NCBI GenBank assembly: GCA_023476545.1
Contig: JAMCYP010000016.1
Coordinates: 2,037-43,600, forward strand
DNA from: Candidatus Martarchaeota archaeon
Lineage (GTDB): Archaea > Micrarchaeota > Micrarchaeia > Micrarchaeales > CABMGC01
DNA length: 41,564 nucleotides
Direction: 5' to 3'
Position 1 is the first letter of the stretch. Each line of letters opens with the position of its first letter. Made by a program: the position numbers and the translations under genes. Under the pieces are notes generated by a model that was not told where the DNA came from, did not search any database, and worked only from the letters and a program-made list of their open reading frames with translations. Below, piece after piece: positions 13,924 through 29,327 of this stretch.

Positions 13924-15618
13924 ATGAAGGTCCTTCAGCTCGACGTTGACAGGCTAGCCTATGACGTGCTCAAGCCAGAGGCGAGCGTGTACGAGGAGAC
14001 GAAGGAGAAGCACGCAGAGTATGACGATGCGCTCGTGATGTGGGTCTGCGTAGAGAAAGGCGATACTGATGCTACCGCAGACGCTGCCATGAAGGACACG
14101 CTTGCGTTCATGGACCAGGTCGGGAGGAGGAAACTGGTCGTGTACCCGTTTGCGCACCTCAGCAGCGACCTGGCGGAGCCGAAGGAGGCGATGCGCATAC
14201 TCGAACACATGTACAAGGGAGTGCCGAAGGGCATAGAGGCGGCGAAGGCGCCGTTCGGCTGGACGAAGAAGTTCACGATTGAGATGAAGGGCCATCCGCT
14301 GGCGGAGCAGGCGAAGAGCTACGACGCGAAGGGCACGGGGAAGAAGACGTACAAGAAGGCGAAGCCTGTAAGCGAAAACACCGCTACCGTGAAGAAGAGC
14401 GACTGGTCTGGCCTGCCTGATACTGATCACAGGAGCATAGGGGAGAAGCTGGACCTCTACAGCTTCCAGGAGGTCTCTCCGGGCATGGTCTACTGGCACC
14501 CGAAGGGGCTCAAGGTCTATCTGGAGCTAGTGAAGTTCATAAGGGAGAACCAGGACAGGTACGGTTACCAGGAGATAAGCACGCCTGCGATAGCGAATCT
14601 CGCGCTGTGGCAGGTCAGCGGGCACCTGGACCACTACAGGGAGAACATGTTCATCTTCGAGAACGAGGGACAGGAGTACGGGCTCAAGCCCATGAACTGT
14701 CCCTCATCGATACTCATATACAAGTCCAAGAGGTGGAGCTACAGGGACCTGCCGTTCCGCAGCTCCATAATGGACAGGCTCTACAGGAACGAGATAAGCG
14801 GGGCGCTCACCGGCCTCTTCCGTGTCCGTGAGCTCACCCAGGACGACTCGCACATATTCGCAAGGGACGACCAGCTGCAGGAAGAGCTCCACAACGTGCT
14901 CAAGCTGCTCAACGAGACCTACTCCACGTTCGGCTTCGCCTACAAGGCAAAGCTCTCCACCATGCCTGACGACCACCTTGGTGACGAGCAACTGTGGGAG
15001 AGGGCCACCGAGGGCCTGAAGAAGGCGCTCGAGGCCAACAAGATCGCTTATGAGGTAAAGGAGAAGGAAGGCGCGTTCTACGGGCCGAAGATAGATGTGG
15101 ACATACAGGACTCGATTGGTAGGGAGTGGCAGTGTGCCACCATACAGATAGACTACCAGCTTCCGCTCCGCTTCAAGCTCGAGTACGCTGGCGAGGACGG
15201 CAAGCAGCACACTCCTGCGATAATACACAAGACGATCTATGGGTCGCTCGAGAGGTTCCTCGGCATACTCGTCGAGCACTATCAGGGGAAGTTCCCCACC
15301 TGGCTGGCACCGGTGCAGGTCAAGGTCATATCCATCTCAGACCAGTCCAACGAGTACGCGCACAAGACCTACGAGCAGTTGAGAAACGCCGGGATCAGGG
15401 TTGAGGAGGACATACAGGACCGCACCATGGAGTACAAGCTCAGGGAGGCGATAGAGCAGAAGATACCCTACATGCTTGTAGTTGGCAAGAAGGAGGTCGA
15501 CGCAGGCACCGTGGCCGTGAGGGTGAGGAGCGGCGGCCAGAAGTTCGGGGTGAAGCTCGACGACTTCATAGAGAAGCTGCACGTGGAGATCGGCAAGAGG
15601 CTGCTCAGCGCCAACTGA
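13924..15618 (+). CDS. thrS: Threonyl-tRNA synthetase, archaeal type
   Basis: 564 residues. Residues 1 to about 145 form the archaeal editing domain (related to D-aminoacyl-tRNA deacylase), which removes serine from mischarged tRNA-Thr. The class II catalytic domain follows, with FRVRELTQDDSHIFA (motif 2) and YGSLERF (motif 3). The three zinc ligands that select threonine are present: Cys in KPMNCPSS, His in DDSHIFA and His in AIIHKTIYG. The C-terminal anticodon-binding domain starts near LAPVQVKVI and ends with KLHVEIGKRL. The whole is a little shorter than other archaeal ThrRS. The gene stands alone behind its own promoter, next to the putative mobile CYTH segment. A tRNA-Thr gene lies 15 kb away at 29256-29327. 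Confidence 0.95.
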   Translation: MKVLQLDVDRLAYDVLKPEASVYEETKEKHAEYDDALVMWVCVEKGDTDATADAAMKDTLAFMDQVGRRKLVVYPFAHLSSDLAEPKEAMRILEHMYKGVPKGIEAAKAPFGWTKKFTIEMKGHPLAEQAKSYDAKGTGKKTYKKAKPVSENTATVKKSDWSGLPDTDHRSIGEKLDLYSFQEVSPGMVYWHPKGLKVYLELVKFIRENQDRYGYQEISTPAIANLALWQVSGHLDHYRENMFIFENEGQEYGLKPMNCPSSILIYKSKRWSYRDLPFRSSIMDRLYRNEISGALTGLFRVRELTQDDSHIFARDDQLQEELHNVLKLLNETYSTFGFAYKAKLSTMPDDHLGDEQLWERATEGLKKALEANKIAYEVKEKEGAFYGPKIDVDIQDSIGREWQCATIQIDYQLPLRFKLEYAGEDGKQHTPAIIHKTIYGSLERFLGILVEHYQGKFPTWLAPVQVKVISISDQSNEYAHKTYEQLRNAGIRVEEDIQDRTMEYKLREAIEQKIPYMLVVGKKEVDAGTVAVRVRSGGQKFGVKLDDFIEKLHVEIGKRLLSAN

Positions 15619-15662
15619 CACTCCCGCTCATAAGGCTTTGCTTCCATTATACAGTGTAACCT

Positions 15663-16640
15663 ATGACTGGAAGCAACAACTTCTGGGCTGCTGTCTTGGG
15701 GAGAGGACAGGGGAGATCCGAGAACACGAGGCGCAAGCATCTGCTCAGGGGAAAGGCCGAGAAGGAGCAGAGCGCGATGGAGTACCTGCTCACCTACGGC
15801 TGGGCAATACTGATAATCGCTATAGTCATGGGCATACTATTCCAGATAGGGGCGTTCAACGGGCTCGCGTTTGCGCCGAGGGCGCAGCCGGGTTCCTGCC
15901 AGGTGGTCAAGACCGCGGCCGGGGAGCAGTTGTTGGGAATATGCAGCGGCCTGCTGCCGCAGTTCGTCGGCTCGCTCGCCGGACAGACGACTGGCGGAGG
16001 CAGCGGGAACGGCAATGGCGGCGCAGGAGGCATCGCCTGCGTAAACACCACCATCCCGACGATGAACCTGCAGACAGGAGGGTACAACACGGTGACGTTC
16101 TGGATGTACTGGAACGGAACGCTCAACGAGAGCCCAGTGGGCTACCCGGGCTACTTCCTCTGGCTCTCGACCAACAGCTGCATAGGGTACTCAACGGGCA
16201 ACAAGGACGCATATGGAGTAAGCGCGAGCGGCCTGGCCAGCAAGTGGGTTATGGTAGCTGTCGAGTTCTACAACGGCCCATACACGCTTAACAGCACGCT
16301 CTACATCAACGGGGCAGCGCAGAACCTCTACCAGTGCCTTCCGACTGCGCACACCGGCCTGGCGAAGGGCAACCTGTTGATAGGAAGCAACACAGGCTCA
16401 AAGTACAAGTTCACTGGGGCGCTTGCCAACGTGCAGATCTACAACACCTCTCTCAACGCGGCCGAGGTGCAGGCGATATACGACGAAGGACTCGGAGGAG
16501 CACCTGTCAACCTGCAAAACCTGGTGGCCTGGTTCCCGCTCAACGGCAACGCGAACGACTACTCTGGCAACTCGCAGAACCTGGTAGTTGCAAAGTGCGC
16601 GTACAGCTACCTCGGCTCGTACTCAACACCGCTGCCGTAG
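15663..16640 (+). CDS. Pilin-like LamG-domain surface protein
   Basis: 325 residues. After a basic N-terminus comes GKAEKEQSAMEYLLTYGWAI and a hydrophobic helix to about residue 67: a class III (archaeal type IV pilin) signal, expected to be cut by the prepilin peptidase just before QSAMEYL. A Gly/Ser/Asn-rich spacer follows, then a LamG jelly roll ending LANVQIYNTSLNAAEVQAIY and GGAPVNLQNLVAWFPLNGN. It is a paralogue of the gene at 1-776. Such proteins may be minor pilins or pilus-borne adhesins. Several cysteines (CQV, CSG, ACVN, NSC, QCL, KCA) could form disulfides outside the cell. The ATG at 15663 follows a TATA-like ATTATACAG at only a short distance, so a TTG at 15696 is an alternative start. 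Confidence 0.85.
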   Translation: MTGSNNFWAAVLGRGQGRSENTRRKHLLRGKAEKEQSAMEYLLTYGWAILIIAIVMGILFQIGAFNGLAFAPRAQPGSCQVVKTAAGEQLLGICSGLLPQFVGSLAGQTTGGGSGNGNGGAGGIACVNTTIPTMNLQTGGYNTVTFWMYWNGTLNESPVGYPGYFLWLSTNSCIGYSTGNKDAYGVSASGLASKWVMVAVEFYNGPYTLNSTLYINGAAQNLYQCLPTAHTGLAKGNLLIGSNTGSKYKFTGALANVQIYNTSLNAAEVQAIYDEGLGGAPVNLQNLVAWFPLNGNANDYSGNSQNLVVAKCAYSYLGSYSTPLP

Positions 16641-16714
16641 CTGGCACTTTGGAATAAAAGAAAAATAGAAAAGGGAAAAAAAGAAAATAAAAACAGAGTA
16701 AGAGGCAGACAGAA

Positions 16715-16876
16715 TCAGTTGTTCTTCTCTATCGCCTTTATCCTTTCCTCGACGCCCTTCGTCTCCTCCTCAAGGTTCTTCTTGTACTCCTTCAGTATCT
16801 CCAGTTTCTCCTCCTTGGTGAGGAAGTTCCGCATCCCGTATCCGTATCCGTTCCCGCATCCACATTCTTCACGCAT
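16715..16876 (-). CDS. Small Cys/Gly/Tyr-headed coiled-coil protein next to PadR
   Basis: 53 residues. The head MREECGCGNGYGYGMRNF holds two cysteines and a Gly/Tyr run; the rest (LTKEEKLEILKEYKKNLEEE and on to the stop) is a charged helix, probably a coiled coil. GGTGA stands eight bases before the ATG. Short archaeal proteins with a Cys/Gly head and an EEKLExLKxYKxxLExE helix are often found beside PadR regulators; I recall the pattern but cannot name a function. The pair of cysteines could bind metal, and the PadR protein next door has a similar Gly-Gly-Tyr-Gly-Cys stretch. It is divergent from that gene and shares its operator. Confidence 0.75.
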   Translation of the reverse strand: MREECGCGNGYGYGMRNFLTKEEKLEILKEYKKNLEEETKGVEERIKAIEKNN

Positions 16877-16900
16877 CTTGTTTCACCTATCGCGTCCAAA

Positions 16901-16957
16901 TATAGGACATCATATATTATACGTCAGCATATATTTAAATATATCGCATGTCCTATA
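16901..16957. promoter_or_regulatory. Shared divergent promoter with PadR-type operator
   Basis: TATAGGACAT (16901-16910) and its perfect inverse ATGTCCTATA (16948-16957) are ten-base arms 37 bases apart. Between them are TATA boxes for both directions: TATTTAAATATA at 16932-16943 for padR and TATAATATATG at 16920-16910 for the small protein. Each arm falls near one transcription start, so one regulator could shut both genes. PadR proteins commonly bind such sites and repress themselves. Confidence 0.65.
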
Positions 16958-16971
16958 CTTGCTGGTATTCA

Positions 16972-17286
16972 ATGCACGGCACGCGAGGAGGATATGGCTG
17001 CGATATGCGCGGCATGCTCTCCTTCCAGATAATGTGGCTGCTCTCCAAGAAGGAGATGCACGGCGAAGAGATAGCTGAAGAGATAGCGAAGCGAAGGGGC
17101 AGCAAGCCCAAGGCGGGCACCATCTACCCGGCGTTGAAGTCCCTGGAGGAGAATGGCGTAATAACGGGCGAGAAGAAGGGCAAGACAGTGGTCTATTCTC
17201 TCACTTCTGAGGGGAAGAGAAGTGTGAAACGTGCAGTGATCTACTTCTGCAGATCCTTCGGCGAGATATTCGAAGGCTCTAGCTAA
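16972..17286 (+). CDS. PadR-family transcriptional regulator
   Basis: About 104 residues from the ATG at 16972. The winged helix begins MRGMLSFQIMWLLSKKEMHG, where PadR proteins usually have Y-G-Y-E after the last Met, and continues IAEEIAKRRGSKPKAGTIYP, ALKSLEENGVI and GKTVVYSLTSEGKRSV. The short C-terminal helix is reduced, as in PadR subfamily 2. The ATG at 16948 overlaps the operator and sits only about ten bases behind the TATA box, so it is unlikely. The N-terminal extension MHGTRGGYGCDM, with its Gly/Tyr/Cys, resembles the head of the small divergent protein. It probably controls that gene, itself and perhaps the transporter 40 bases downstream. Confidence 0.87.
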   Translation: MHGTRGGYGCDMRGMLSFQIMWLLSKKEMHGEEIAEEIAKRRGSKPKAGTIYPALKSLEENGVITGEKKGKTVVYSLTSEGKRSVKRAVIYFCRSFGEIFEGSS

Positions 17287-17325
17287 GCTGCATATACTTT
17301 TATTGTCTCGGGTAGATAACGGGGC

Positions 17326-18192
17326 ATGGACCAAGCGATAGGAATTATTTGCGCAGGCGCAGCGCTGGTCTTCTGGGGAGTTGGCGACTTCCTGATACAG
17401 CGAACAACGCGGCGCGTTGGAGACTGGGAGACGCTCTTCATAATCTCAATCATCGGAGTAGTGATATTCACACCATTCGTCTACGGTAACATAGGCTACC
17501 TGTTCAGCGCACACTCGTTGGTCATCCTTGCCTTGGTATCAGCAGTCATGTTCTCCGCTGCGCTGATTGACTTTGAGGCACTGAAGAATGGCAAGATTTC
17601 CGTGGTGGCGCCCCTAATGTCGCTCGAAGTACCAGTGGCCGCAACGCTATCGGTTCTCTTCCTAAGCGAAACGCTGCAACCAGTCGAGATCGTTCTTGTG
17701 GCTCTGATAGTCGTAGGCCTAGGGATGGTATCATTGAAATCCAATGATCTATCAAAAAAGGTGTGGCTGGAGCGGGGCGTGATGCTGGCTGTTGCTGCAG
17801 CGGTGCTGCTTGGACTCGCAGACTTTCTGGTGGGCTTTGGCTCCAGAACTACGAGTCCGCTAATGATAAATTGGTTCATCTCTGTGACACTGACAGTGTA
17901 TACACTAGTGTACATCACCGCACAAGGGAATCTGCGCGGAATGCTGACCAGGACAAGGAAGGCGGGAGTGTTGGTGGTGATCATGGGCATACTGGACAAC
18001 GGCGCATGGCTCGCGTTCGCGTTTGCCACCGTGTTCATACCGATAACGCTCACAGTGGCGATATCAGAGAACTACATAGCCCTTGCCGCAATACTGGGTC
18101 TCTTGGTGGGTGGAGAGAGGCTGATGAAGCATCAGAAGATAGGCTTGGTGATTGCGTTGGCCAGCGCCGTGGTGCTCTCGCTACTAGCCTAG
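17326..18192 (+). CDS. EamA/DMT-superfamily transporter
   Basis: 288 residues with ten hydrophobic helices in two EamA halves. The first half ends with the usual PL(M)SLEVPVAATLSVLFLSE, the second with TVAISENYIALAAILG and a GGERL loop. The family exports or imports small metabolites such as amino acids and nucleotide sugars; the substrate cannot be read from the sequence. It begins 40 bases after padR on the same strand, with a TATA-like CATATACTTTTATT of its own between them. Its stop overlaps that of the alkyltransferase gene on the other strand. Confidence 0.85.
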   Translation: MDQAIGIICAGAALVFWGVGDFLIQRTTRRVGDWETLFIISIIGVVIFTPFVYGNIGYLFSAHSLVILALVSAVMFSAALIDFEALKNGKISVVAPLMSLEVPVAATLSVLFLSETLQPVEIVLVALIVVGLGMVSLKSNDLSKKVWLERGVMLAVAAAVLLGLADFLVGFGSRTTSPLMINWFISVTLTVYTLVYITAQGNLRGMLTRTRKAGVLVVIMGILDNGAWLAFAFATVFIPITLTVAISENYIALAAILGLLVGGERLMKHQKIGLVIALASAVVLSLLA

Positions 18193-18485
18193 AGCGCGCC
18201 TTCGCGCCTGAGCATATTTTCCTTGGCTTTAGAGCCGCCCCTTCCGGAGTAATGACCGATGCTGCCGTCGCTCTTGACCACCCTATGGCACGGAATCGTG
18301 GGAGCGAACGGGTTCATGCGCATGACGCTGCCAACGGCCCTGTATGCATTGGGTCTGTGCACGGCAGCTGCTATCTGCTTGTACGTGCGAGTCTCGCCTT
18401 TCGGTATCTTAGCTGTCGCAAGGAGAACCTGCCTCTGGAAGTCTGTGAGCTTGTATTCGTTCAGCAATCTCCGCGCATCCCTCAT
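18189..18485 (-). CDS. O6-alkylguanine-DNA alkyltransferase, catalytic domain only
   Basis: 98 residues covering only the DNA-binding and active-site domain of MGMT/Ogt. It has the helix-turn-helix TYKQIAAAVHRPNAYRAVGS with the arginine finger, and the acceptor motif PCHRVV with Cys66, so it is not an alkyltransferase-like protein that has lost the cysteine. HYSGRGGSKAKENMLRREGA is the usual end. It would remove alkyl groups from guanine by suicide transfer. The N-terminal domain of full-length enzymes is absent, as in other short forms. A TATA-like AATATAAACTTTT about 25 bases upstream lies inside the end of the acetyltransferase gene. Confidence 0.88.
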   Translation of the reverse strand: MRDARRLLNEYKLTDFQRQVLLATAKIPKGETRTYKQIAAAVHRPNAYRAVGSVMRMNPFAPTIPCHRVVKSDGSIGHYSGRGGSKAKENMLRREGAL

Positions 18486-18529
18486 GTCTCTTCCATTTGC
18501 TCTAAAAGTTTATATTCTTGGCAAGATGC

Positions 18530-19048
18530 TCATATCTTTCTGGCCATCAGCACGGCGTGAGGATCCTCCTCCCTTGGTATTATCCTGCTCCTCCTGAAAC
18601 CCAACTTGGCGTAGAACGGGCGCGATCTTCCCGCGGCCCATGTGAACAGCGTGTCCCTGCCTGATGCCTTTGCTTCCGCAATGGACCACTTTACCAGCCA
18701 GGTACCAAATCCCGATCTCTGGTGGCTTGGAGCCACTACGAGCCAGTCTATGCCCGCGATGTTTCTGGGATAGTATGTGTGCCAGTATAGGCAGACCAAA
18801 GCCACGACCTTGCCCTTCTCGGTCAGCACCCTTTTTGGATAGAAGGGCAGGTCGCCGTACGGCAAGAGCGTGAGGTCTTCTCTGCATACTGCTTCGTGCT
18901 TTCTGCCGAGCGCGCGGCGGACCAGCCTGAGGCATGGCTCGAGATCGCTCTTCCTGAAACCCCTGAATGCGATGCCGGTAGGTAGCCTTCCCGCCCTTCT
19001 GACGCGCATGAGGCAGTATGGCGCTGTATGGTTATTAGCCTTTGCCAA
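18530..19048 (-). CDS. GNAT-family N-acetyltransferase
   Basis: Up to 172 residues. IAFRGFRKSDLEPCLRLVRR is the first strand-helix; IDWLVVAPSHQRSGFGTWLV is motif A, with Q/R-x-x-G-x-G for acetyl-CoA binding; RPFYAKLGFRRSR is motif B. Substrate unknown. The TTG at 19048 opens the longest frame, but the AT-rich box at 19062-19072 would place transcription start very near it, so the ATG at 19009 may be the real start; both keep the full domain. The promoter region is shared with the ABC transporter operon transcribed the other way. Confidence 0.8.
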   Translation of the reverse strand: MAKANNHTAPYCLMRVRRAGRLPTGIAFRGFRKSDLEPCLRLVRRALGRKHEAVCREDLTLLPYGDLPFYPKRVLTEKGKVVALVCLYWHTYYPRNIAGIDWLVVAPSHQRSGFGTWLVKWSIAEAKASGRDTLFTWAAGRSRPFYAKLGFRRSRIIPREEDPHAVLMARKI

Positions 19049-19095
19049 CCTAACCGTCCAAGAGACTTTTTAATGCTTGGCTGGATAGTCTAATC

Positions 19096-19785
19096 ATGCA
19101 AACCTCTTCTGTCAAGATTCAGGACGTAAGCAAGATCTACGTCTCCGGAGAGATTAGGGTAAAGGCCCTTGACAAGGTCTCGTTCGCGCTCAAGCCCGGG
19201 GAGTTCGTGGCGATAGTCGGACCGTCGGGAAGCGGCAAGAGCACGCTGATGAATCTCCTTGGCACGATAGACAAGCCCAGCACGGGCGAGGTCTACATAG
19301 ACGGCACGCCGACATCGCGCATGAGCGGAGACCAGCTCGCAGATTTCAGGAACAGGAAACTGGGCTTCATATTCCAGGCATACAACCTAATTCCCGGCCT
19401 CGATGCCGAGAAGAACGTGGAGATGCCGCTGATGACCCGCGACATGCCTCAGGAAGAAAGGAAGAGGCGGGCGGACAAGCTGCTGGAGCAGCTTGGCCTG
19501 GGCGAGCGGCTGAAGCTCAGGCCCACGCAGCTCAGCGGAGGCGAGCAGCAGAGGGTCGCGATAGCCAGGGCACTGGTAAGCGAGCCCGCGCTCATACTGG
19601 CTGACGAGCCAACCGGCAACCTGGACACCAAGACGGGCAACGAGGTAATAAAACTGCTGAAGGAAGTATCTAAGAGCAGGCACGTCACAATAGTCATGGT
19701 AACACATAACCCCGATCTCACGAAGCACTGCGATCGCGTGATCCACATCAGGGATGGGAGGATAGAGAAAGAGGTCTTGAATTGA
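19096..19785 (+). CDS. MacB/LolD-type ABC transporter ATPase
   Basis: 229 residues. Walker A GPSGSGKST (42-50), signature LSGGEQQRVA (146-155), Walker B LILADEP with GNLD after it (D-loop), and the switch His in MVTHNP. The V(K)ALDKVSF start and the tight sequence match the MacB/LolD/FtsE class, which drives FtsX-like permeases without passing substrate through a classic channel. It is the first gene of a three-gene operon with a secreted partner (19782-21035) and the permease (21045-22361). A TATA-like TTTTTAATGC lies about 25 bases before the ATG, giving a near-leaderless message. Confidence 0.93.
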   Translation: MQTSSVKIQDVSKIYVSGEIRVKALDKVSFALKPGEFVAIVGPSGSGKSTLMNLLGTIDKPSTGEVYIDGTPTSRMSGDQLADFRNRKLGFIFQAYNLIPGLDAEKNVEMPLMTRDMPQEERKRRADKLLEQLGLGERLKLRPTQLSGGEQQRVAIARALVSEPALILADEPTGNLDTKTGNEVIKLLKEVSKSRHVTIVMVTHNPDLTKHCDRVIHIRDGRIEKEVLN

Positions 19786-21035
19786 GAATAGGAAGGAGCA
19801 TACTCGGAATCGTACTGTTGCTGTTTTCGGTAATGCCCGCTGCAGTCTACGCGGGAACCAGCGGGCCTTCTCCGATACCCGCACCGCCCGCCTTCCAGAT
19901 AAGCGCGTCTTCGCTCACGCTCTGCCGGGGAGTGGTCAACAACGTGCCCGTCAAGATCTCTAATCCAGGGACGCAGCCCATGACGAGCGTGCAGCTCGGC
20001 ATAGTCGCCTCAAGGAACATATATGCCATAGGCAACGGTACTGTCACGACCTCCACGGTGCCATCGAACTCCAGCGTAATGGTTAACCTGCCGATATTCG
20101 TAAGCCTCAACACCTCAGACCTCGTCTCCGCAGGCATCTCGATAACGTACAACTACCTGACCCTCTACTCGGACAGCGAGGTCAGGAACGTGAGCTTCGG
20201 GGTGCAGACCTGCTCTTCTCCGCTATCGATATCGGTAAACCACACAATAACATCTGGCAAGATAGACACGGTCGTGCTCAACCTCACCAACACCGGCAAC
20301 ACCACGCTCAATGCTATTTCGGTAAGGACGATCATGCCATCACAAGACGCAGCGGTGCTCAGCAACCAGCCGGTGCAGGTAGGGGCTCTTCTCCCAGGTG
20401 GCGCTGCACAGATCAACGTCAGCACCTTCGTCTACCGCAACGCGTCGCAGTCCTTCCCGATGAACGTCTCGGTAAGCATGTTCAACGGCACCAGCCCCGT
20501 GCAGATGCTGAATTCCATACAGCTGCTCTCCGCTGGCATAATCAACATGACGCCGTCTAGCATAACGCTCTCGCCCACGCTTCCCGGTCCAGGCAGCATC
20601 TTCTCCGTCTCGTTCGTGCTCACCGACATAGGAACGTCCGGCGCCTCCGCGGTGAGCGTGACCGCTATGCCGCAGCAGGGCTTCACCTCCTTCGGCTCCA
20701 ACTCAACCTTTGTTGGAGACATGGCAGTGGACACCCAGACCCCTGTAACAATAACTCTGCTCGCCAACCGCACGCTCCAGCCCGGCAGCTACACCATACC
20801 CGTAAGGATAAGCTACCTCAACAACTTCAGGCAGAACCTGAGCACCGTGATAGACGTGCCACTCACCATAGGCAGCTCATCAGGAGCCCAGTCAGCAGGG
20901 AGCGGCCCCGTGGTGGTCAGGTCTGGTTCGGGAAGCGCGGGAGGCGGTCTGATCATCCTCTTCCTGCTCGTAGTCATAGTGGTGCTTGGCTACCTCTATT
21001 ACAGGGAGCGCAAGAGGACGCACAAGGCCAAGTAG
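19782..21035 (+). CDS. Membrane-anchored extracytoplasmic partner of the ABC exporter
   Basis: 417 residues from a TTG that overlaps the ATPase stop by four bases. A signal peptide (SILGIVLLLFSVMPAAVYA, cleavage after AYA-like Ala) leads into three or so beta-sandwich repeats of the CARDB/NPCBM kind, seen as NVPVKISNPGTQPMTSVQLG, TVVLNLTNTGNTTLNAISVR and FSVSFVLTDIGTSGASAVSV. A Gly/Ser stretch and one helix (GGGLIILFLLVVIVVLGYLY) with a basic tail anchor it at the C-terminus. Two single cysteines (TLC, QTCSS) could pair. Placed between ATPase and permease, it probably hands cargo to or from the permease, as MacA does in bacteria, but the fold is different. Confidence 0.8.
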   Translation: MRIGRSILGIVLLLFSVMPAAVYAGTSGPSPIPAPPAFQISASSLTLCRGVVNNVPVKISNPGTQPMTSVQLGIVASRNIYAIGNGTVTTSTVPSNSSVMVNLPIFVSLNTSDLVSAGISITYNYLTLYSDSEVRNVSFGVQTCSSPLSISVNHTITSGKIDTVVLNLTNTGNTTLNAISVRTIMPSQDAAVLSNQPVQVGALLPGGAAQINVSTFVYRNASQSFPMNVSVSMFNGTSPVQMLNSIQLLSAGIINMTPSSITLSPTLPGPGSIFSVSFVLTDIGTSGASAVSVTAMPQQGFTSFGSNSTFVGDMAVDTQTPVTITLLANRTLQPGSYTIPVRISYLNNFRQNLSTVIDVPLTIGSSSGAQSAGSGPVVVRSGSGSAGGGLIILFLLVVIVVLGYLYYRERKRTHKAK

Positions 21036-22366: not shown

Positions 22367-22419
22367 AGCCCCCAGGAGTCCTGCGAACTTTGAGTGAGGA
22401 GCCCTTACTATAGCAAATG
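22367..22419 (+). repeat. Repeat copy A: tRNA-Thr 3'-end-like sequence
   Basis: Starts AGCCCCCAGGAG (one extra C relative to the tRNA end) six bases after the permease stop. About 53 bases align with copy B at 23847-23898 with roughly nine differences, ending ATAGCAAATG against ATAGCAAACG. It marks the left edge of the low-GC island and runs in the same orientation as all other copies. Confidence 0.65.
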
Positions 22420-22486
22420 CTAGTGTTTGATAGTTTTTGACATGCGCCAAAGAATTTAAATAATTCATTAGTGCTACCTGACATAT

Positions 22487-23041
22487 ATGGAGACTTATGA
22501 CGTGGTCTCGGTAAGGCAAAAGGGAATTTGGGGCTCATCTCTATTAATCATATTTATCGTAGTATCTCTACTACTGTCTTTTGTTTACTATGCGGCTGTA
22601 GCTTCGAATCCGACGCTGTATCAAGATTATTTCTTAGTTTTTGGAACAATCGAGATCGGAGGTTTATTGCTATTGACCTCTGCCCTTTACGATTTCGGAA
22701 AAGCAAATAATAAACAGAGGATTGGAACGCTTGCAGTTGTGGGAACCATACTGTACATAGTTGGAACAGCGCAAGGTTGGATAAGTACATTTGCTTACGG
22801 CTCAATGCCCGCATGGCTGCAGTTTGTGATAATTGGGTTAGCCGGCTTGATAAGCCACGGAGCATATCTGATCGCATTAGTAGATATTGGCAATGTATCG
22901 AAAATTGAACTATTTAAGTACTCTGGTTATGCGCTGTTCGTCAGCGCAATTTTGGCTTTTGTAATTACTATTTTCGCAGACCCAATCGGGCTCGTAGCAT
23001 GGATACTGTGCGCTATTGGTTTCAATAACCTGAAGAAGTAG
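22487..23041 (+). CDS. Hypothetical five-helix membrane protein
   Basis: 184 residues with five hydrophobic segments (around GSSLLIIFIVVSLLLSFVYY, GTIEIGGLLLLTSALYDF, IGTLAVVGTILYIVGTAQGW, FVIIGLAGLISHGAYLIALV and YALFVSAILAFVITIF). It resembles the archaeal DUF996 type of small membrane proteins in layout, but I cannot assign it. A TATA-like ATTTAAATAA lies about 30 bases before the ATG, so it is probably leaderless and transcribed alone. Codon use is AT-rich compared with the ABC operon upstream, consistent with an acquired gene. Confidence 0.75.
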   Translation: METYDVVSVRQKGIWGSSLLIIFIVVSLLLSFVYYAAVASNPTLYQDYFLVFGTIEIGGLLLLTSALYDFGKANNKQRIGTLAVVGTILYIVGTAQGWISTFAYGSMPAWLQFVIIGLAGLISHGAYLIALVDIGNVSKIELFKYSGYALFVSAILAFVITIFADPIGLVAWILCAIGFNNLKK

Positions 23042-23058
23042 GCTACCCTGATTTGCTT

Positions 23059-23718
23059 TTATAGCACACGTCTCAGTTGGTTCAAGGTTCCTGAAATCTT
23101 CTGTGATGCAACCCTCTTTATCTGCCTGATGCTGTCCGTTGTCTCCGAGAATGTGCTGGCAGACTCGTTCATTTCGGTATTTTCAGTCTGATATCTTTGC
23201 TTTCTACTATGGTAAGTCATCCCAATGAAAGCCGCGGCTCCAAGAATAGCGATGCCTGCGCCTGCGATCATTGCGTCATTGGCCGATCCGACTGCCGACT
23301 TGGCAGCATAGAACCACTCTAGCGTAGCCCACTTGTCGTTTAGCCCTGGGAATGTTTGGGCAACTTTCACCATCCAGCTGGTGCTTCCGGAAACCTCGGA
23401 GAAAGCGCTGCCCGGATTTATGGTTTTCGTTATTGCATCAGTAGGCATGGGGTTGGTTGCACTGGCGTTCCAAAACGCCACAATAGCAGAAGATATGCCT
23501 TGAGAGTTCGGTTGGCTGAGCCCAAGCAACTTAGCACACATCAACATGGCAGCGGTCGGCGTGTTGGCGCATGCGCCGGGATCGCCGACATGTGCCGTGT
23601 ATGAGGCTGCAAACTGGTATGCGTTTGCCAGTTGCTCCTTTCCGTAAACCGCAAGCCCGGTTCCTATCGTGGTTTCGACTGCTGAAACACCTTGCGCGAT
23701 TCTAATTCTGGAAACCAT
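23059..23718 (-). CDS. Hypothetical protein with one C-terminal membrane helix
   Basis: 219 residues, not recognised. The first 145 residues are rich in Ala, Ser and Gly with two cysteines (GACANT, MCAKLLG) and alternate short helices; a clear transmembrane helix AMIAGAGIAILGAAAFIGMT follows at about 145-165, then a polar tail of about 50 residues rich in Ser, Thr and charges. A hydrophobic stretch near the start is weak, so orientation is uncertain; a tail-anchored or single-pass surface protein is likely. TATA-like GTATAAATA lies about 35-40 bases upstream. It converges on the previous gene with an 17-base gap. Confidence 0.65.
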   Translation of the reverse strand: MVSRIRIAQGVSAVETTIGTGLAVYGKEQLANAYQFAASYTAHVGDPGACANTPTAAMLMCAKLLGLSQPNSQGISSAIVAFWNASATNPMPTDAITKTINPGSAFSEVSGSTSWMVKVAQTFPGLNDKWATLEWFYAAKSAVGSANDAMIAGAGIAILGAAAFIGMTYHSRKQRYQTENTEMNESASTFSETTDSIRQIKRVASQKISGTLNQLRRVL

Positions 23719-23845
23719 TCTATCACAAAATATGTTGGTTTTTCAGCTTATTTATACATTAGTGAAATTTTCAGAACATACAAAGAAATTTGGGATTTTG
23801 TAACCAGCTTATTTTGTCCTCGATTTGTCATCGAAAATTTTCTGA

Positions 23846-23898
23846 CAGCCCCAGGAGTCCTCCGAGCTTTGAGCGAGGGACCCTTTCGATAGCAAACG
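23846..23898 (+). repeat. Repeat copy B: tRNA-Thr 3'-end-like sequence
   Basis: Begins CAGCCCCAGGAG (23846-23857). Its first 11 bases after C equal the last 11 bases of the tRNA-Thr gene region at 29256-29266; about 52 bases align with copy A. It lies in the gap between the unknown membrane protein and hicA, just past the 3' end of hicA. Confidence 0.7.
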
Positions 23899-23913
23899 AT
23901 ATACAAGCAGTCT

Positions 23914-24156
23914 TTATTTGACCCTGGCCAGAAATTCCTCTTTCTTTATTCCTGCCAGTTCGAGTATGCCGAGTAGGGTACCGGTCTTGACGTCCCTGTG
24001 CAGAGGCACAACTGTGACCACTTTTCTTCCATTCACGAACTTTCGTAAGACTATGTGGCTGCCTCTTTGGCGCACCGCAGAAAAGCCGAATTCCTTAGTA
24101 AGGGTCTTTATTATTTCAGTGCCAGAAAGCCTAGGCGATCTCGACACTGATTGCAC
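23914..24156 (-). CDS. hicA: HicA-type mRNA interferase toxin
   Basis: Up to 80 residues. LSGTEIIKTLTKEFGFSAVR, then QRGSHIVLRK with the catalytic His and VPLHRDVKTGTLLGILELAG is the HicA (YcfA) double-stranded-RNA-binding fold. It cuts mRNA unless bound by HicB. The GTG at 24156 or the GTG at 24147 starts it; both lie inside the end of hicB, so antitoxin and toxin overlap by 17-26 bases with antitoxin first. That order (hicB before hicA) is the less common one, seen in some HicAB pairs. Confidence 0.9.
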   Translation of the reverse strand: MQSVSRSPRLSGTEIIKTLTKEFGFSAVRQRGSHIVLRKFVNGRKVVTVVPLHRDVKTGTLLGILELAGIKKEEFLARVK

Positions 24157-24340
24157 CTATCTTCTTGGCGCTCTTAAGGTCCTTCTTTACATTAGGCATT
24201 TCATCCAGATAGAGACCAACAGCCTCCTTTATGTTTTTGATGGCTTCCTCTATGGTTTTGCCTTGGGTGGTAACTCCGGTCATAGCCTCCTTTATGACGT
24301 ACCATTTGCCTTCTTTCCAGATGTTCGTCTGCAGTTCCAT
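24131..24340 (-). CDS. hicB: HicB-type antitoxin
   Basis: 69 residues from the ATG at 24340. NIWKEGKWYVIKEAMTGVTT followed by GKTIEEAIKNIKEAVGLYL is the HicB partial RNase-H-like fold that plugs HicA. There is no added DNA-binding domain, so repression may depend on the complex. The frame is open further upstream to 24463, but that stretch crosses repeat copy C and has no family similarity. A palindrome covers the start codon. Confidence 0.88.
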   Translation of the reverse strand: MELQTNIWKEGKWYVIKEAMTGVTTQGKTIEEAIKNIKEAVGLYLDEMPNVKKDLKSAKKIGAISVEIA

Positions 24341-24354
24341 TGGTCGTACCAATG
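24338..24354. promoter_or_regulatory. Palindrome over the hicB start, likely operator
   Basis: CATTGGTCGTACCAATG has seven-base arms around CGT and includes the hicB start codon. TATA-like TATTAATAAC lies upstream on the minus strand near 24370-24382. The position suits autoregulation by the HicAB complex; a translational hairpin is also possible. Confidence 0.5.
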
Positions 24355-24416
24355 TAATTTGGGTGATAAAGTTATTAATACAATGCCGGGTTGACGCTCC
24401 CCACTCGATTTTCTCC

Positions 24417-24428
24417 CAGCCCCAGGAG
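24417..24428 (+). repeat. Repeat copy C: tRNA-Thr 3'-end-like sequence
   Basis: CAGCCCCAGGAG, identical to the first 12 bases of copy B and sharing 11 bases with the tRNA 3' end. Similarity to copy B fades after AGGAGT. It stands upstream of the hicBA pair, so copies B and C bracket the toxin-antitoxin module exactly. Confidence 0.65.
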
Positions 24429-24502
24429 TTCCCCCGCCGACATGGTGGGTGCCCCGTCTGCATGAAAAACGTCCCTTTTTCCTTCCGCTTCTGAGCCTAG
24501 CA

Positions 24503-24586
24503 TTATCTCGCCAAGGGTGTTTGCCTAGATGGTTTTAATAGGCTTGTCGTCTGGAAAGGGGAGGCGAATCCCATTAGGCGAGGTGA
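24503..24586 (+). ncRNA. Candidate structured RNA or folded repeat
   Basis: TTATCTCGCC (24503-24512) can pair with GGCGAGGTGA (24577-24586) in a ten-base helix with two G-U pairs. Inside lie a second stem GCCTA/TAGGC (24523-24527 with 24539-24543) and a short GGG/CCC stem (24558-24560 with 24570-24572). The layout is a closed multi-branch structure, but no known RNA family is recognised and it does not fit a tRNA. It may be part of a mobile element end. The stretch 24341-24835 otherwise holds only the palindrome, copy C and one small open frame. Confidence 0.3.
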
Positions 24587-24621
24587 GAGGACTAATACAG
24601 TGAACATCCAAATGAGTTGTA

Positions 24622-24792
24622 ATGGCAATCGTTTATCGAACACGCAAGTTGAACATACGGTTCCATATTCAAGTTTTCGGCCTAACCATTCCCATTGAAA
24701 CAACAGTAGAGAGAAAACTAGCGGAATGGCTATGCCCTGACGCCAAGCGACAAGTAAAGTGGGCCAGGAAAAACCAAACGTCTGGCGCATAG
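24622..24792 (+). CDS. Possible small protein of 56 residues
   Basis: An open frame MAIVYRTRKLNIRFHIQVFG and onward to QTSGA, basic, with no recognised domain. Support is limited to normal-looking codon use and its place in a stretch with no other gene; there is no convincing ribosome site. It could equally be chance. Confidence 0.25.
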   Translation: MAIVYRTRKLNIRFHIQVFGLTIPIETTVERKLAEWLCPDAKRQVKWARKNQTSGA

Positions 24793-24835
24793 TTTACGCT
24801 GATTAGTCAAAGTCAGTCAGACACTGTAGGATACA

Positions 24836-25132
24836 TCAGTCCTTTATTCTGAAATGTACCTTTAGTAATTGTTTAATTATAGGCCTTAACAGTTCGGCGT
24901 CCTCTTCTTTGGATATGTAAAAAGAACCCAATGCACCGCAATTTGCTTCAAGAAACATAAAGCCCTCTTTCGTTTCGAGGAAATCAAGAGTAAAATTGTC
25001 TTTGCTTTTGCGATCTGCCAAACGCGTGGCGATCTCGGTTGCCTGATTTATCAGGTTGGCAGGGACTTCCTGCTGTGAGATATCTTGAATGTTCAGTGCC
25101 TTTTCCCAGTTGTTTTTATCTCGGATTTTCAT
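24836..25132 (-). pseudogene. ATP-grasp enzyme, C-terminal fragment
   Basis: 98 residues that match only the end of an ATP-grasp ligase (RimK-like): NFTLDFLETKEGFMFLEANC, where Asp, Glu and Asn bind magnesium and nucleotide. The N-terminal and central lobes are missing. Immediately upstream on the same strand is the cut-off start of a PLP decarboxylase in another frame, overlapping by 17 bases. Together they look like the two ends of neighbouring or fused genes joined by a deletion. Function is almost surely lost. Confidence 0.6.
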
Positions 25133-25424
25133 ACAGCGACACAGCTTTCGGCCTATAAAATGAAACCTCCATTCCGATGTTGGCGTGTGCTACGGCTTCC
25201 ACGAATGCGTTGCCCTTGTTCGCCTTTGCCGAGTAAAAGATGCCCTCTCTTGCTCCAAAATCCGAGAAAACTTCCTTGAATCTGCGGATGTTATCTATAA
25301 ACACCTGCGGAAACAGGATGTTCAGTGGTGAAGAATGATTTTCCAGCAAATCGCTAAGCGTTAAGCGATGTGCATCAAGGAAATCAACCACTAAACTGTT
25401 TTTTAAAGGGTCTAATCCCCCCAT
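25116..25424 (-). pseudogene. PLP-dependent decarboxylase (lysA/speA-like), N-terminal fragment
   Basis: 102 residues. SPLNILFPQVFIDNIRRF and GIFYSAKANKGNAFVEAV are the start of the alanine-racemase-type barrel of diaminopimelate/ornithine decarboxylases; the Lys in YSAKAN would hold PLP. After NIGMEV the similarity ends, and the frame closes at ENPR. The catalytic second half is absent. The open frame and intact start suggest recent decay. The gap to the transporter gene (25425-25540) contains an AT-rich tract but no gene. Confidence 0.6.
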
Positions 25425-25540
25425 ATCCTATCCTGCCCTGAGCCACCTTCTCAGGTCATTTCTGCACGCTTATAGAGTATTGTGCATGTCTTGATTTAAA
25501 AGGTTTTGTGCAGTTTCGTTTAATGTCTTAATTATAAAGA

Positions 25541-26446
25541 CTATGAGGCAGCCACTAAGAGTATACCAATGAGCGTCAATAGCAATCCAACTATTAGCCC
25601 AGAATATGATAGCGAAAGGAAAAAGACAGAGTACACAATTATGCCCAGAAGCTCAAGGTTTCCTATGATATTCGCCAAGTTGATGTATTTCGCCTTGGCT
25701 CTCCTAAGCAGCCTATAACCAAATTCTTCTGCGTAATACGCAAATGCTACAAAAAGAGCGATTATTCCAGCTAAAGCGATCCCATTGCCAGTCAGTAAAG
25801 GGCTGCCCTGAAGTAAGCCAAACCCTATAACGTAGGCTAAGACGACGCCTAATGTTGTAACCAATACGGCAGGAACAGCAATAAGCAATTGCATTTTGCC
25901 GTAGGCATAGTAGAATGAGCAGTAGAAACCTACCGCATAGAGAACAAGCATCGCAGTCGATAAAAGTATCACGCTAAGAGAGGCGCTTATACCCATCGGG
26001 TTCAATGCGAATGTCTGGGCTATGAGGCCTGCAACCACAAGAATTGTTCCGAGAAGGTACCGCATTTTTAGTCGTTCGTGTTTTACCCTGCTTATCAGCA
26101 ACGCCAGCACTATGATGTAGCCGAACTGAAATGAAGAGACCAAAGGGAAATTCTGGTTGCCTATCAGGCCATAGTAGATTATAATTCCAAGCCCAAAGCA
26201 TATGCCCGCTACCACGGGATATTTCGCAAGCTTCCTATCATTATCTGTGAGTTTCATCCTCTTGAATGCCATATAAATGACGAGTATCACAAGAGTTATT
26301 GCGGTTACAAAACCTTCCACAAACAAGAGATACAAGATAGCAGTTTGGGTATTCAGCGAAACTATTACATTTGATAGTATCGACCAGAAGGTCCACGCAA
26401 TAGCGCCTGCAGCGGCAAGCAGCAATCCTTTACCGATATTCTGCAT
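25541..26446 (-). CDS. DMT-superfamily (EamA-like) transporter
   Basis: 301 residues with about ten hydrophobic helices, beginning GLLLAAAGAIAWTFWSILSN and ending with a paired helix and GLLLTLIGILLVAAS. Divergent from the two other DMT proteins in this window. It follows rsgA by 19 bases on the same strand, so the two are probably co-transcribed. Substrate unknown. The DNA is AT-rich in keeping with the island. Confidence 0.8.
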   Translation of the reverse strand: MQNIGKGLLLAAAGAIAWTFWSILSNVIVSLNTQTAILYLLFVEGFVTAITLVILVIYMAFKRMKLTDNDRKLAKYPVVAGICFGLGIIIYYGLIGNQNFPLVSSFQFGYIIVLALLISRVKHERLKMRYLLGTILVVAGLIAQTFALNPMGISASLSVILLSTAMLVLYAVGFYCSFYYAYGKMQLLIAVPAVLVTTLGVVLAYVIGFGLLQGSPLLTGNGIALAGIIALFVAFAYYAEEFGYRLLRRAKAKYINLANIIGNLELLGIIVYSVFFLSLSYSGLIVGLLLTLIGILLVAAS

Positions 26447-26465
26447 TCAACCAGCTCCTTGCAGC

Positions 26466-27545
26466 TTAGCTCTTTGAAAGAAGTCTGATATAGCTGTTGT
26501 ACCTCTCGCGAGGTATTAACCCTTCTTCAACTGCTTTCTTTACAGCGCATTTCGGCTCGTGGGAATGCGTACAGTCACTGAATTCGCAGCGGGGCGCAAA
26601 TTCGGCGAATTCTGGGTAGTATAGGCGCAGAGAGTCTGGGCTAACGTTCCAGAGGCCCAGCGAACGTATGCCTGGTGTATCTATAAGCATGGTAGACTTG
26701 TCAAGAAGGTGCAGGGATGTGGAAGTGGTCGTGTGCCTGCCCTTGCCAGATTTCTCACTCACCTCCTTGGTGAGTATCGCTTCCTCTTTGAGCAGGCTGT
26801 TAATAAGCGATGACTTCCCGACACCACTATTTCCTACAAGGACGCAGCGCTTGCCTTCCAGATATGGCAAGAGCTGGTCTATGCCTTCTTGTGTCTTGTT
26901 CGAAACGCTAACAATTGGAAGATCGGCATTCCTGTACATTGACAGATCTGGAGATGGGGCTATGTCGATTTTGGTTAGGCACAACAATGGCCTGATGTTC
27001 CCATACTGGCAAATTATAAGATACCTATCAACAAGCCTTGGATGGAAAACAGGGTTTACTGTTGAGGCGACAATCACAGCAAGGTCTATGTTTACTGCAA
27101 AAACATGCTCCTCTCCGATTCCAGACCTCCTCGAGGCGTCCGCCCGCAACCTTGCAAGCTTTGAATGGCGTGTCGTTATGCCCTTTATGACCAGCTGCTG
27201 GTTGGATATCTCAAATACTACGTTATCACCCACAGCTAACTGATTCAACAATGCGCTCTGCTCGCTGGATGACGCAGACCCAGGCAGAAACTTGCCATCG
27301 TACAGGATAGAGAAGGCTGGGAAGCTTACATCTGCAAGGATGCCTATCCTCCCGTGCTGTGATGCTTCAGCGGGATCGTAAACAGCCAACTCAGGCATTT
27401 CCTCTTCTTGGTCATTTACTTTCTGGCCAAAAGACTTTCTATCGTGGTTGGCTTCACGCTGTGCCTTCTTCCTAAGGGCGCGTTTGTTCTTCCATCTTTC
27501 CGAGTACCAGTCCTTGCTTTTCATCACTTTAGATTGAGTCTGCAA
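26466..27545 (-). CDS. rsgA: RsgA-type circularly permuted ribosome-assembly GTPase
   Basis: 359 residues. An OB fold (about 63-125) precedes a GTPase with permuted order G4-G1-G3: TKID (191-194), GNSGVGKS (238-245), DTPG (289-292). The zinc finger is C320-x4-C325-x-H327-x5-C333 (CEFSDCTHSHEPKC). In bacteria RsgA checks the decoding centre of the late 30S subunit and leaves on GTP hydrolysis. The protein is standard in bacteria and rare in archaea, so transfer is likely, consistent with its place in a tRNA-bordered island. The first 50 residues are a charged, Lys/Arg-rich extension not needed for the fold. The promoter region shows TTATTAATTTT. Confidence 0.9.
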   Translation of the reverse strand: MQTQSKVMKSKDWYSERWKNKRALRKKAQREANHDRKSFGQKVNDQEEEMPELAVYDPAEASQHGRIGILADVSFPAFSILYDGKFLPGSASSSEQSALLNQLAVGDNVVFEISNQQLVIKGITTRHSKLARLRADASRRSGIGEEHVFAVNIDLAVIVASTVNPVFHPRLVDRYLIICQYGNIRPLLCLTKIDIAPSPDLSMYRNADLPIVSVSNKTQEGIDQLLPYLEGKRCVLVGNSGVGKSSLINSLLKEEAILTKEVSEKSGKGRHTTTSTSLHLLDKSTMLIDTPGIRSLGLWNVSPDSLRLYYPEFAEFAPRCEFSDCTHSHEPKCAVKKAVEEGLIPRERYNSYIRLLSKS

Positions 27546-27678
27546 CTTATTAATTTTAGTTAGGATAAGGTATGTTCGAAGAGATATTTATAGGTGAGCA
27601 TAGCGGCAACTTTGTTTGTCTCAAAAAGAGGAGTGAACACCAAAGTTTCCCCCTAAAAGAGATAAAGATTTATGAGTC

Positions 27679-27690
27679 CAGCCCCAGGAG
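27679..27690 (+). repeat. Repeat copy D: tRNA-Thr 3'-end-like sequence
   Basis: CAGCCCCAGGAG followed by GGAGT. From A27680 on it matches 13 bases of the tRNA-Thr 3' end (AGCCCCAGGAGGG), longer than copies A to C. It lies in the 257-base gap 27546-27802 between rsgA and the methyltransferase, which otherwise contains a weak open frame at 27572-27751 that runs across the repeat and an AAGGA/TCCTT hairpin near 27755-27770. Confidence 0.65.
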
Positions 27691-27802
27691 GGAGTGCCTG
27701 ATTTTGTGTGGGGCTTATTCGATTTGCCATATTGGCGCCGACGACAGATAGAAAGTAAAGGAATTTATCCTTTTGGTGAGCTTTGGGTTGGCAGGGCACG
27801 GC

Positions 27803-28561
27803 TTACTGTTTTTGCGCCACTACGACTATGGATAAGCTATTTGATTTTCTGAATTTCTTGCCCCAACCTCCGTACACGCTCAGAATCTTGAATCCGTTCT
27901 TTTCTAACAATCGTTTGAGTTCAGTGCGCGAGTATATCTGCATGTCCCAGCTGTCTTTGATTATCTTTGGTCTGTCAAATCCTTTTTGTATCCAAGTTTC
28001 TTGATTTATTTTGAGTAGGCGTGCTTTAGAGTCCAGATGGTTGTGGTTAAATCTCACATATGTGTTTTCTTTATCCTTTAAAGCGGCATCGATAAAGTCG
28101 TATTCGAGAGCCCAGTAGTTATACTCAAGATTGAAGATATCAAAAATGTATAGCCCATGAGCCTTGAGGTTATGGTTTATGTTCTGAAGCGCTGTAACGA
28201 ATTCGTTCTCTTTCAGATGACCTATCGCATTGAATATCGTGATAACAGCGTCGAATTTGCCCAATCTGGCGTATCTGATGTCGCCCTGGTTAAACTTCAG
28301 ATGCACCCTCAGTTTCTTGGCTTTGGATTTGGCAATGTCCAGCATTCCCTTGCTCATGTCGTTGGCAACGACCCTGTAAGATTTCGAGAGATATAACGCC
28401 TGTGCCCCAGTGCCGCACGTGAAGTCTAAAACGCTCTTTGCTTTGTGCCTCTTTAGCGCCGAATCTATGAATGAGTTTGATTTAGAGTAGAACCAATCCG
28501 CTTCAAGCTCTAATGTGTCGTAATATTTTGCAAGCCTGTCATAACTGTATTGTTTCATCAT
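27803..28561 (-). CDS. Class I SAM-dependent methyltransferase
   Basis: 252 residues. YDRLAKYYDTLELEADWFYS at the start, motif I VLDFTCGTGAQALYLSK, the acidic residue of motif II in VVANDMSKGML, motif III GDIRYARLGKFDAVI and a post-motif NHNLKAHGLYIFDIF define a Rossmann-fold methyltransferase of the ubiE/Methyltransf_25 kind. The acceptor is unknown. Two tandem ATG codons (28561, 28558) and an ATATAATATAGG box upstream mark the start. Island-type AT-rich codons. Confidence 0.85.
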   Translation of the reverse strand: MMKQYSYDRLAKYYDTLELEADWFYSKSNSFIDSALKRHKAKSVLDFTCGTGAQALYLSKSYRVVANDMSKGMLDIAKSKAKKLRVHLKFNQGDIRYARLGKFDAVITIFNAIGHLKENEFVTALQNINHNLKAHGLYIFDIFNLEYNYWALEYDFIDAALKDKENTYVRFNHNHLDSKARLLKINQETWIQKGFDRPKIIKDSWDMQIYSRTELKRLLEKNGFKILSVYGGWGKKFRKSNSLSIVVVAQKQ

Positions 28562-28619
28562 AATCGCGTTTCCTATATTATATCTAAAGCTTTATGGGCT
28601 AATTATTAATTAAAGTTGA

Positions 28620-29052
28620 TTGAATCGCCAGAATCCTAATCATAGGTCCTTCGGGCTCCGGCAAGACATTCGCAGCAGAGGCACTGAAAAAGGAAGGCAT
28701 CAATGCCGTAGATGCCGATTCTGTACCTGGACTATATGCTTGGTACAGCAGGGGCAAGAAAGTGAAGCATCCAAAGTTGACCAAAAAATTTGTTCACTCC
28801 CACCCTTTTCTTTGGGACAGAAAGGTGTTAATAAAATACCTTAAGACCAACCCCAACATCTATCTTTTCGGCTTGTCAGGAAATGTTTTTGACACGATCG
28901 ATTTATTCGACAAGGTGTACTTCCTTAAGGTAAACCCACAAGTGGTAGTAAGAAGATTAATGCATTCGAGTAGGAAAAACCCCTGGGGCAAGAAGGAATG
29001 GCAGCAAAAAGCAACAATCGACTACCACTCCTATTATTTTCTTGCAATTTAA
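28620..29052 (+). pseudogene. P-loop nucleotide kinase, frameshifted and shortened
   Basis: The frame with the P-loop reads RILIIGPSGSGKTFAAEALK, VDADSVPGLYAWY, SHPFLWDRK, IYLFGLSGNVFDTIDLFDKV and VVVRRL, which fits a small AAA_33/shikimate-kinase-like P-loop kinase. No usable start lies in that frame: TGA stands at 28621-28623. A TTG at 28620 opens another frame (MNR) that would join the P-loop frame if one C of CGCC at 28626-28629 were removed, giving MNRRILIIG. The protein also stops early (HSYYFLAI) about 30 residues before the usual family end. It is probably a decaying gene, though a sequencing error could explain the front break. Confidence 0.6.
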
Positions 29053-29187
29053 ATGTTGACTTTAAATTCTGTTGCTCTCCGAAAGCACAACGAACACAGA
29101 GGTTCGTCTTGAAAAAGATGCAAAGTTTAAACTAATATCGATTCAATGCTAATGCCTTGTTCCATTATCCTGAAAACCAATGGATGC

Positions 29188-29219
29188 GAACCCTCGACGA
29201 CAGAATGCATTTTTACGAA
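29188..29219 (-). repeat. Partial copy of the tRNA-Thr anticodon and T arms
   Basis: On the plus strand GAACCCTCGAC (29188-29198) and TTTACGAA (29212-29219) repeat two blocks of the tRNA-Thr gene (29273-29283 and 29290-29297) in the same order and orientation, but 13 rather than 6 bases apart. There is no matching acceptor or D arm, so it is a tRNA remnant, not a gene. Confidence 0.5.
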
Positions 29220-29255
29220 TCTTCTTCGACGACAAAATCTGGTAAAACGTTGGTT

Positions 29256-29327
29256 AGCCCCAGGAGGGGGTTGAACCCTCGACTTCCAGTTTACGAAACT
29301 GGCACTCTGCCACTGAGTTACTGGGGC
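29256..29327 (-). tRNA. tRNA-Thr (anticodon CGT)
   Basis: Read on the minus strand: acceptor GCCCCAG pairs with CTGGGGC, D stem ACTC/GAGT with a seven-base loop containing GG, anticodon stem CCAGT/ACTGG with loop TTCGTAA giving CGT, variable loop AAGTC, T stem GAGGG/CCCTC with loop TTCAACC, discriminator T. All stems pair fully and there is no intron. It reads ACG. CCA is not encoded. The 3' end faces the low-GC island, and its terminal bases recur at 22367, 23846, 24417 and 27679. Confidence 0.95.

Follow-up and report, generated by a model that had tools for sequence, protein, structure and literature searches.

Integrated elements without integrases and tandem integration have been reported for archaea (PMC8371274), and 15 ssrA islands of Dehalococcoides have no integration module (PMC3146451). 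Here, a row of four small units without an integrase was analysed at the 3' end of the tRNA-Thr(CGT) gene in a 41,564-nt stretch of DNA (the window). The window is part of contig C9 of the 760,819-bp genome (25 contigs, 87.5% complete) of an acid-mine archaeon, Candidatus Micrarchaeota. We consider it likely that the row consists of cassettes placed into the tRNA end by site-specific recombination and moved in trans. The closest known kinds are the accretion of cis-mobilisable elements (CIMEs) and the Dehalococcoides ssrA islands.

CIMEs, known from tandem accretion at tRNA genes in Streptococcus (PMC5704250), have no integrase or transfer genes, keep their att sites and form tandem arrays at the 3' end of a gene. 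The units at tRNA-Thr (Thr units) also have no integration or transfer genes and keep attL and attR, a state to which the loss of such genes and their never having been present could lead alike. They stand in tandem, four at tRNA-Thr(CGT) and two at tRNA-Thr(TGT). CIMEs use the integrase of another element, to which the presumed mobilisation of the Thr units may be likened. Unlike CIMEs, the Thr units are much smaller (from 571 bp), are found in an archaeal host, have interchangeable arms at two loci and include units with only a toxin-antitoxin pair; these properties are what is new here. The ssrA islands of Dehalococcoides (PMC3146451) also form rows delimited by copies of the target gene end, some without an integration module, but their target is the transfer-messenger RNA gene, their enzymes are serine recombinases and the islands are larger. 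The tRNA-gene islands and the archaeal tyrosine-integrase elements (PMC8371274, PMC4383910) share with the Thr units the tRNA 3' end as core, the direct repeat at the far border and the regenerated tRNA. However, archaeal integrative elements usually carry their own integrase, and the Thr units do not. Integron arrays, integrase-less clusters of attC sites (CALINs) and archaeal integrons (PMC9668308) resemble them in their small, promiscuous cassettes of one orientation, an enzyme encoded elsewhere and toxin-antitoxin cassettes. In contrast, the Thr units have no attC boxes, IntI or attI, and their core is of the tRNA type with long arms. In the open-access literature, nothing was found on a Micrarchaeota integrase together with a tRNA gene or on a DPANN tyrosine recombinase, which is weak evidence of novelty.

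Two tRNA-Thr arrays with shared cores and arms

The repeat CCCCAGGAG is found at 22370, 23849, 24420, 27682 and 29258, always on the + strand and in the sense of the tRNA. The five copies in the window compare with 0.32 expected, and none of 100 shuffles reached five. The original prediction, made from the letters of the window, had claimed five one-directional copies of the tRNA-Thr(CGT) end, and this was confirmed. The whole genome holds nine copies: five in the window array, three at tRNA-Thr(TGT) on contig C11 and one chance match inside a gene. The genome has seven copies of the 11-bp core CTCCTGGGGCT (0.36 expected), four in the window array and three on C11. All seven are in the sense of the tRNA end and are confined to the two tRNA-Thr arrays. 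The target gene is still complete and was the sole match of an Rfam search of the window, and a same-sense copy of its 3' end stands at the far border, as in tRNA-targeted integrative elements. Core copies B, C and D have CAGCCCCAGGAG in common, copy D is identical to the tRNA over 13 nt, and the regions of copies A and B show 83% identity over 53 bp. These likenesses had been predicted as well (the last over about 52 bases), together with the low GC content of the island, which is about 42-50% against about 54-59% outside.

Each interval contains separable cargo, in agreement with the prediction (Table 1). The methyltransferase of c1 was matched to its family with E 1e-16, RsgA of c2 with E 5e-50 and the HicA toxin of c3 with E 9e-14; the partner of the last is HicB-like, and the match of the EamA-like transporter is weak. 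The prediction stood at tRNA-Thr(CGT) but understated the arrangement by missing the second array on C11. There, tRNA-Thr(TGT) is followed by same-sense core copies 9.0 and 9.7 kb downstream. The first unit, c1' (9.0 kb), has an Lrp-like regulator, a transporter, and transketolase-like and hydrolase frames, which were named by inspection only. The second, c2' (674 bp), encodes a MazE-like antitoxin and a ParE toxin.

The two arrays share their unit ends. In the direction of the tRNA, the end following a core is called the proximal arm and the end preceding the next core the distal arm. The genome under study is G000, relatives are G001, G002, G004-G007 and G039, and C with a number denotes a contig; the relatives retrieved using its integrases are also Candidatus Micrarchaeota. 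The alpha proximal family (90% over 82 bp) comprises c2, c1' and one unit of G007, and the beta proximal family comprises c3, c2', a unit of G005 and the sequence directly after tRNA-Thr(TGT) in G004. The gamma distal arm was found in c1, c1', G001 and G005, and the delta distal arm in c3, c4, c2', G001 and G005. The gamma arms of C9 and C11 are 99% identical over about 104 bp, after which the sequences diverge. The arms common to both arrays enclose unrelated cargo: c3 and c2' both run from beta to delta, each with its own toxin-antitoxin pair, and c1' runs from alpha to gamma. Judged by sequence, such interchange would be as expected of attP arms left by separate circular elements. Among 79 family genomes, only those of this genus had gamma and delta arms. 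The tRNA-Pro element of this genome was at first read as delta-like at its distal end, a reading that was dropped since the delta profile did not reach that end.

One unit recurs with exact borders in another genome. The MazE/ParE unit c2' and G005:C9:1708-2393 are 87% identical over 689 bp; the homology extends from one core to the other and one base further, and the flanking sequences are unrelated. In each of the two genomes the unit retains its two arms, its two cores and open genes. The G005 copy has a DEAD-box helicase gene on one side and a further stretch bounded by cores on the other, and its core at 1708 carries changes, as does core A. Because c2' recurs with homology that ends at the repeats, as predicted for mobile cassettes, the result argues for units that move.

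Both tRNA-Thr loci are polymorphic among the relatives. At tRNA-Thr(TGT), the next gene follows without a unit after 44 bp in G001 and 35 bp in G005, whose tRNA end has two or three mismatches to the core. The distance from this tRNA to a conserved gene X is 0.6 kb in G004, 1.8 kb in G002 and 10.2 kb in G000, and the inserts of G004 and G002 are different ones. At tRNA-Thr(CGT), a helicase gene begins 1.8 kb downstream in G001 and 9.5 kb downstream in G002. The original prediction had named two observations that would speak against it, namely copies that are scattered or in both orientations, and borders with no presence or absence between relatives. Neither was made: the cores are of one sense at tRNA-Thr arrays, and units are present or absent at both sites.

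Table 1. Coordinates of the tRNA-Thr(CGT) array in the window
Feature	Position	Strand	Content
tRNA-Thr(CGT), integration target	29256..29327	-	complete; 67.2 bits
Core at tRNA end	29256-29266	-	last 11 nt of tRNA, CTCCTGGGGCT in tRNA sense
Unit c1	27691..29255	-	methyltransferase 27803-28561; P-loop kinase-like frame without usual start codon
Two CGACGACA motifs	29195..29234	+	at 29195 and 29227; c1 proximal end beside tRNA
Gamma distal arm of c1	27691..27784	-	contains CCGACGACAGA; 99% to C11:39238-39334
Core copy D	27680..27690	-	divides c1 and c2
Unit c2	24429..27679	-	RsgA GTPase 26466-27545; EamA-like transporter 25541-26446; gene fragments
Alpha proximal arm of c2	27592..27679	-	common to C11 unit c1' and G007:C50
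Core copy C	24418..24428	-	divides c2 and c3
Unit c3	23858..24417	-	571 bp core to core; HicB-like antitoxin 24131-24346; HicA toxin 23914-24156
Beta proximal arm of c3	24386..24416	-	common to C11 toxin-antitoxin unit, G005:C9 and G004
Delta distal arm of c3	23858..23917	-	A/B repeat of the original prediction
Core copy B	23847..23857	-	divides c3 and c4
Unit c4	22379..23846	-	two small proteins without family: 22487-23041 (+), 23059-23718 (-)
Delta distal arm of c4	22379..22439	-	
Core copy A	22367..22378	-	one inserted base (extra C); distal end of array

Candidate integrases and competing explanations

No integrase gene was found in either Thr array, and the window as a whole gave only a sub-threshold match (E 0.7), as had been claimed. 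Three tyrosine integrases are encoded elsewhere in the genome: on C6 beside tRNA-Val(gac), on C25 inside a tRNA-Val(cac) element and on C23 without an adjoining tRNA. They form one family with 43-51% identity, and the catalytic R, K, HxxR, H and Y positions are conserved. The three are XerA-like without being XerA (51-61 bits on NF040815 against a cut-off of 220). At 74 GTDB loci of this family, most of the integrases lie just downstream of a tRNA, with many specificities. The motif CGACGACA is present within 70 bp of the tRNA end, 9-11 nt past the tRNA, in 12 of 50 integrase-adjacent tRNA ends, where 0.23 would be expected. It also occurs in the proximal end of c1, in the gamma arm and in the C25 element, and the 10-mer CGACGACAGA has four copies in this genome, all within element ends. 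The motif is a candidate integrase-binding site that would tie the Thr units to this integrase family.

A mechanism can be proposed. A unit would be read in the direction of the tRNA as the 11-bp core, a proximal arm, the cargo, a distal arm and the next core. Integration would copy the tRNA end and leave the tRNA intact. The unit would circularise at its cores and reinsert at the tRNA-Thr end or at an existing core; the arm families would then be the attP arms of the circular intermediate. Movement would depend on a tyrosine integrase encoded outside the arrays, and the family to which it most likely belongs is the tRNA-targeting one of Micrarchaeota present on C6, C25 and C23. We infer the circle, the identity of this helper and present movement. 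The C23 integrase (G000:C23 7646-8473) and one at G001:C3:386534 occupy the same chromosomal place, between HAD and MsrA genes, in different orientation and without an adjoining tRNA, and such an integrase is a possible resident helper. The original prediction had offered either scars of successive integrations or cassettes moved by an enzyme encoded elsewhere, and it is supported by the finding of integrases only elsewhere and by the recurrence of c2'.

Several points weigh against cassettes moved in trans. The array is probably partly fixed because c1 and c2 have no recognised partner arm and c2 contains gene fragments. Both units appear decayed, which suggests that some units are old, and the array would be a mixture of scars and intact units. 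Since the assembly is incomplete, it may lack a Thr element that carries an integrase. No family integrase stands beside tRNA-Thr among the 74 GTDB loci. The CGACGACA motif was noticed post hoc, and it is present in 12 of the 50 ends and in only some units. In viral contigs, the gamma-core, core-alpha and core-beta patterns had no matches. The integrase profile gave one weak match of 25% there, and a viral helper was not found.

The units could also be dead scars, left by successive full elements that inserted at tRNA-Thr with their own integrases, decayed to cores and arms and no longer move. The degraded appearance of c1 and c2 and the altered cores (core A and that at G005:1708) agree with this, and integrase loss after integration has been described for archaeal elements (PMC8371274). 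However, the 674-bp unit is intact in two genomes between unrelated flanks, and the gamma arms are 99% identical between two loci. Moreover, independent deletions in larger elements are not likely to have yielded units of 571 and 674 bp whose beta and delta arms match. We regard this explanation as doubtful.

It is also unlikely that the units are accreted in cis, that is, excised and carried only with an adjoining integrase-bearing element that arrives at the same tRNA, although such accretion is documented for bacterial CIMEs (PMC5704250, PMC3146451). A comparable pair exists in this genome (G000:C6 7171-10400), where a 3.0-kb integrase-bearing unit lies next to tRNA-Val(gac) and a second unit comes after it. 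The first approximately 90 bp of the second unit are nearly identical to those of the first, and a short PIN-like frame was seen in it by inspection. In contrast, neither Thr array has an integrase-bearing element, and the recurrence of a single unit in a different neighbourhood means that the borders must work one unit at a time.

The cargo might also be shuffled by homologous rather than site-specific recombination, with arms and tRNA copies as its substrates. At 60-100 bp, the arms have the similarity that such recombination needs, and the two tRNA-Thr genes have different distal flanks from genome to genome. Nevertheless, the recurring unit loses its homology within one base of the cores with no shared arm outside, and the 3' ends of Val, Pro, His and Ser tRNAs are duplicated likewise without shared arms; this explanation is improbable. 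An integron or CALIN, which the cassette size, toxin-antitoxin cargo, single orientation, missing integrase and the existence of archaeal integrons (PMC9668308) might bring to mind, can practically be set aside, because no attC-like R'/R'' box pairs or GTTRRRY were found near any core (consensus boxes only), the arrays begin at tRNA ends, and the three integrases reach 20-28 bits on TIGR02249 against a cut-off of 265. A miniature inverted-repeat transposable element was rejected too, as there are no terminal inverted repeats (longest match 8 nt within 50-nt ends).

Other tRNA genes and neighbouring features

The 3'-terminal 11-mer recurs downstream, in sense and within 10 kb, for 10 of the 34 tRNAs of this genome, whereas the antisense, upstream and antisense-upstream controls gave 0, 0 and 0. 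The copy downstream of tRNA-Gly(gcc) is a neighbouring tRNA-Gly and was excluded, and that of tRNA-Ala, inside a coding frame, may be due to chance, which leaves eight or nine of 34. Short intervals without an integrase follow the tRNAs for Ser (528 bp), His (735 bp), Pro (1,192 bp, with a HicA toxin) and Val(tac) (1,557 bp). Once in G001 and twice in G005, the tRNA-Pro core CGGCCTCCCCG is separated from a Thr-like core by about 60 bp of conserved sequence; the tRNA-Pro gene itself is visible only on the G001 contig. Upstream of these Thr-like cores lies gamma in two cases and delta in one. Comparison of these sites suggests that Thr-like cores within tRNA-Pro elements have taken up Thr-type units.

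With some hesitation, a wider interpretation can be put forward, in which the Thr units are a functioning archaeal counterpart of the integron. Gene-sized cassettes of this Micrarchaeota genus, with standard, interchangeable arms, would be excised and inserted singly by a tyrosine integrase that acts in trans and is either resident or itinerant. Their sites would be tRNA-Thr ends and the Thr-like cores nested in tRNA-Pro elements, and toxin-antitoxin cassettes would stabilise the arrays. Micrarchaeota genomes are about 1 Mb or less, yet inserted units adjoin roughly a quarter of the tRNA genes here. Movement in trans, if it occurs, would give the streamlined DPANN archaea a cheap means of cassette exchange that costs only an 11-bp core and two arms per gene. 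Such exchange would account for how toxin-antitoxin and metabolic genes are gained when neither plasmids nor viruses are in hand. The clear borders can serve to spot such units in other archaeal genomes.

Some further observations concern the islands and their surroundings. The distal flanks of the two tRNA-Thr genes vary between genomes (window 14434-20633; C11:40573-42668). A block on the MGMT side lies beyond the CGT array in G000 but adjoins tRNA-Thr(TGT) in G001 and G005; the flanks could have been exchanged by recombination between identical cores. At G007:C50 9851-10836, an alpha arm is joined directly to part of the c1' cargo (95% over 890 bp), and the unit corresponds to c1' with about 6.1 kb less inside. 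A 47-bp stretch with 85% identity is present in both islands (window 24767-24813 and C11:33284-33330) and partly in G005, G006, G007 and G039; it may encode a conserved C-terminus (NVWRVVYAD). Finally, similar repeated genes with a MEYLLTYGWAILIIA start and glycine-rich ends were seen at window 1-776 and 15761-16571, with more copies on contig C2.

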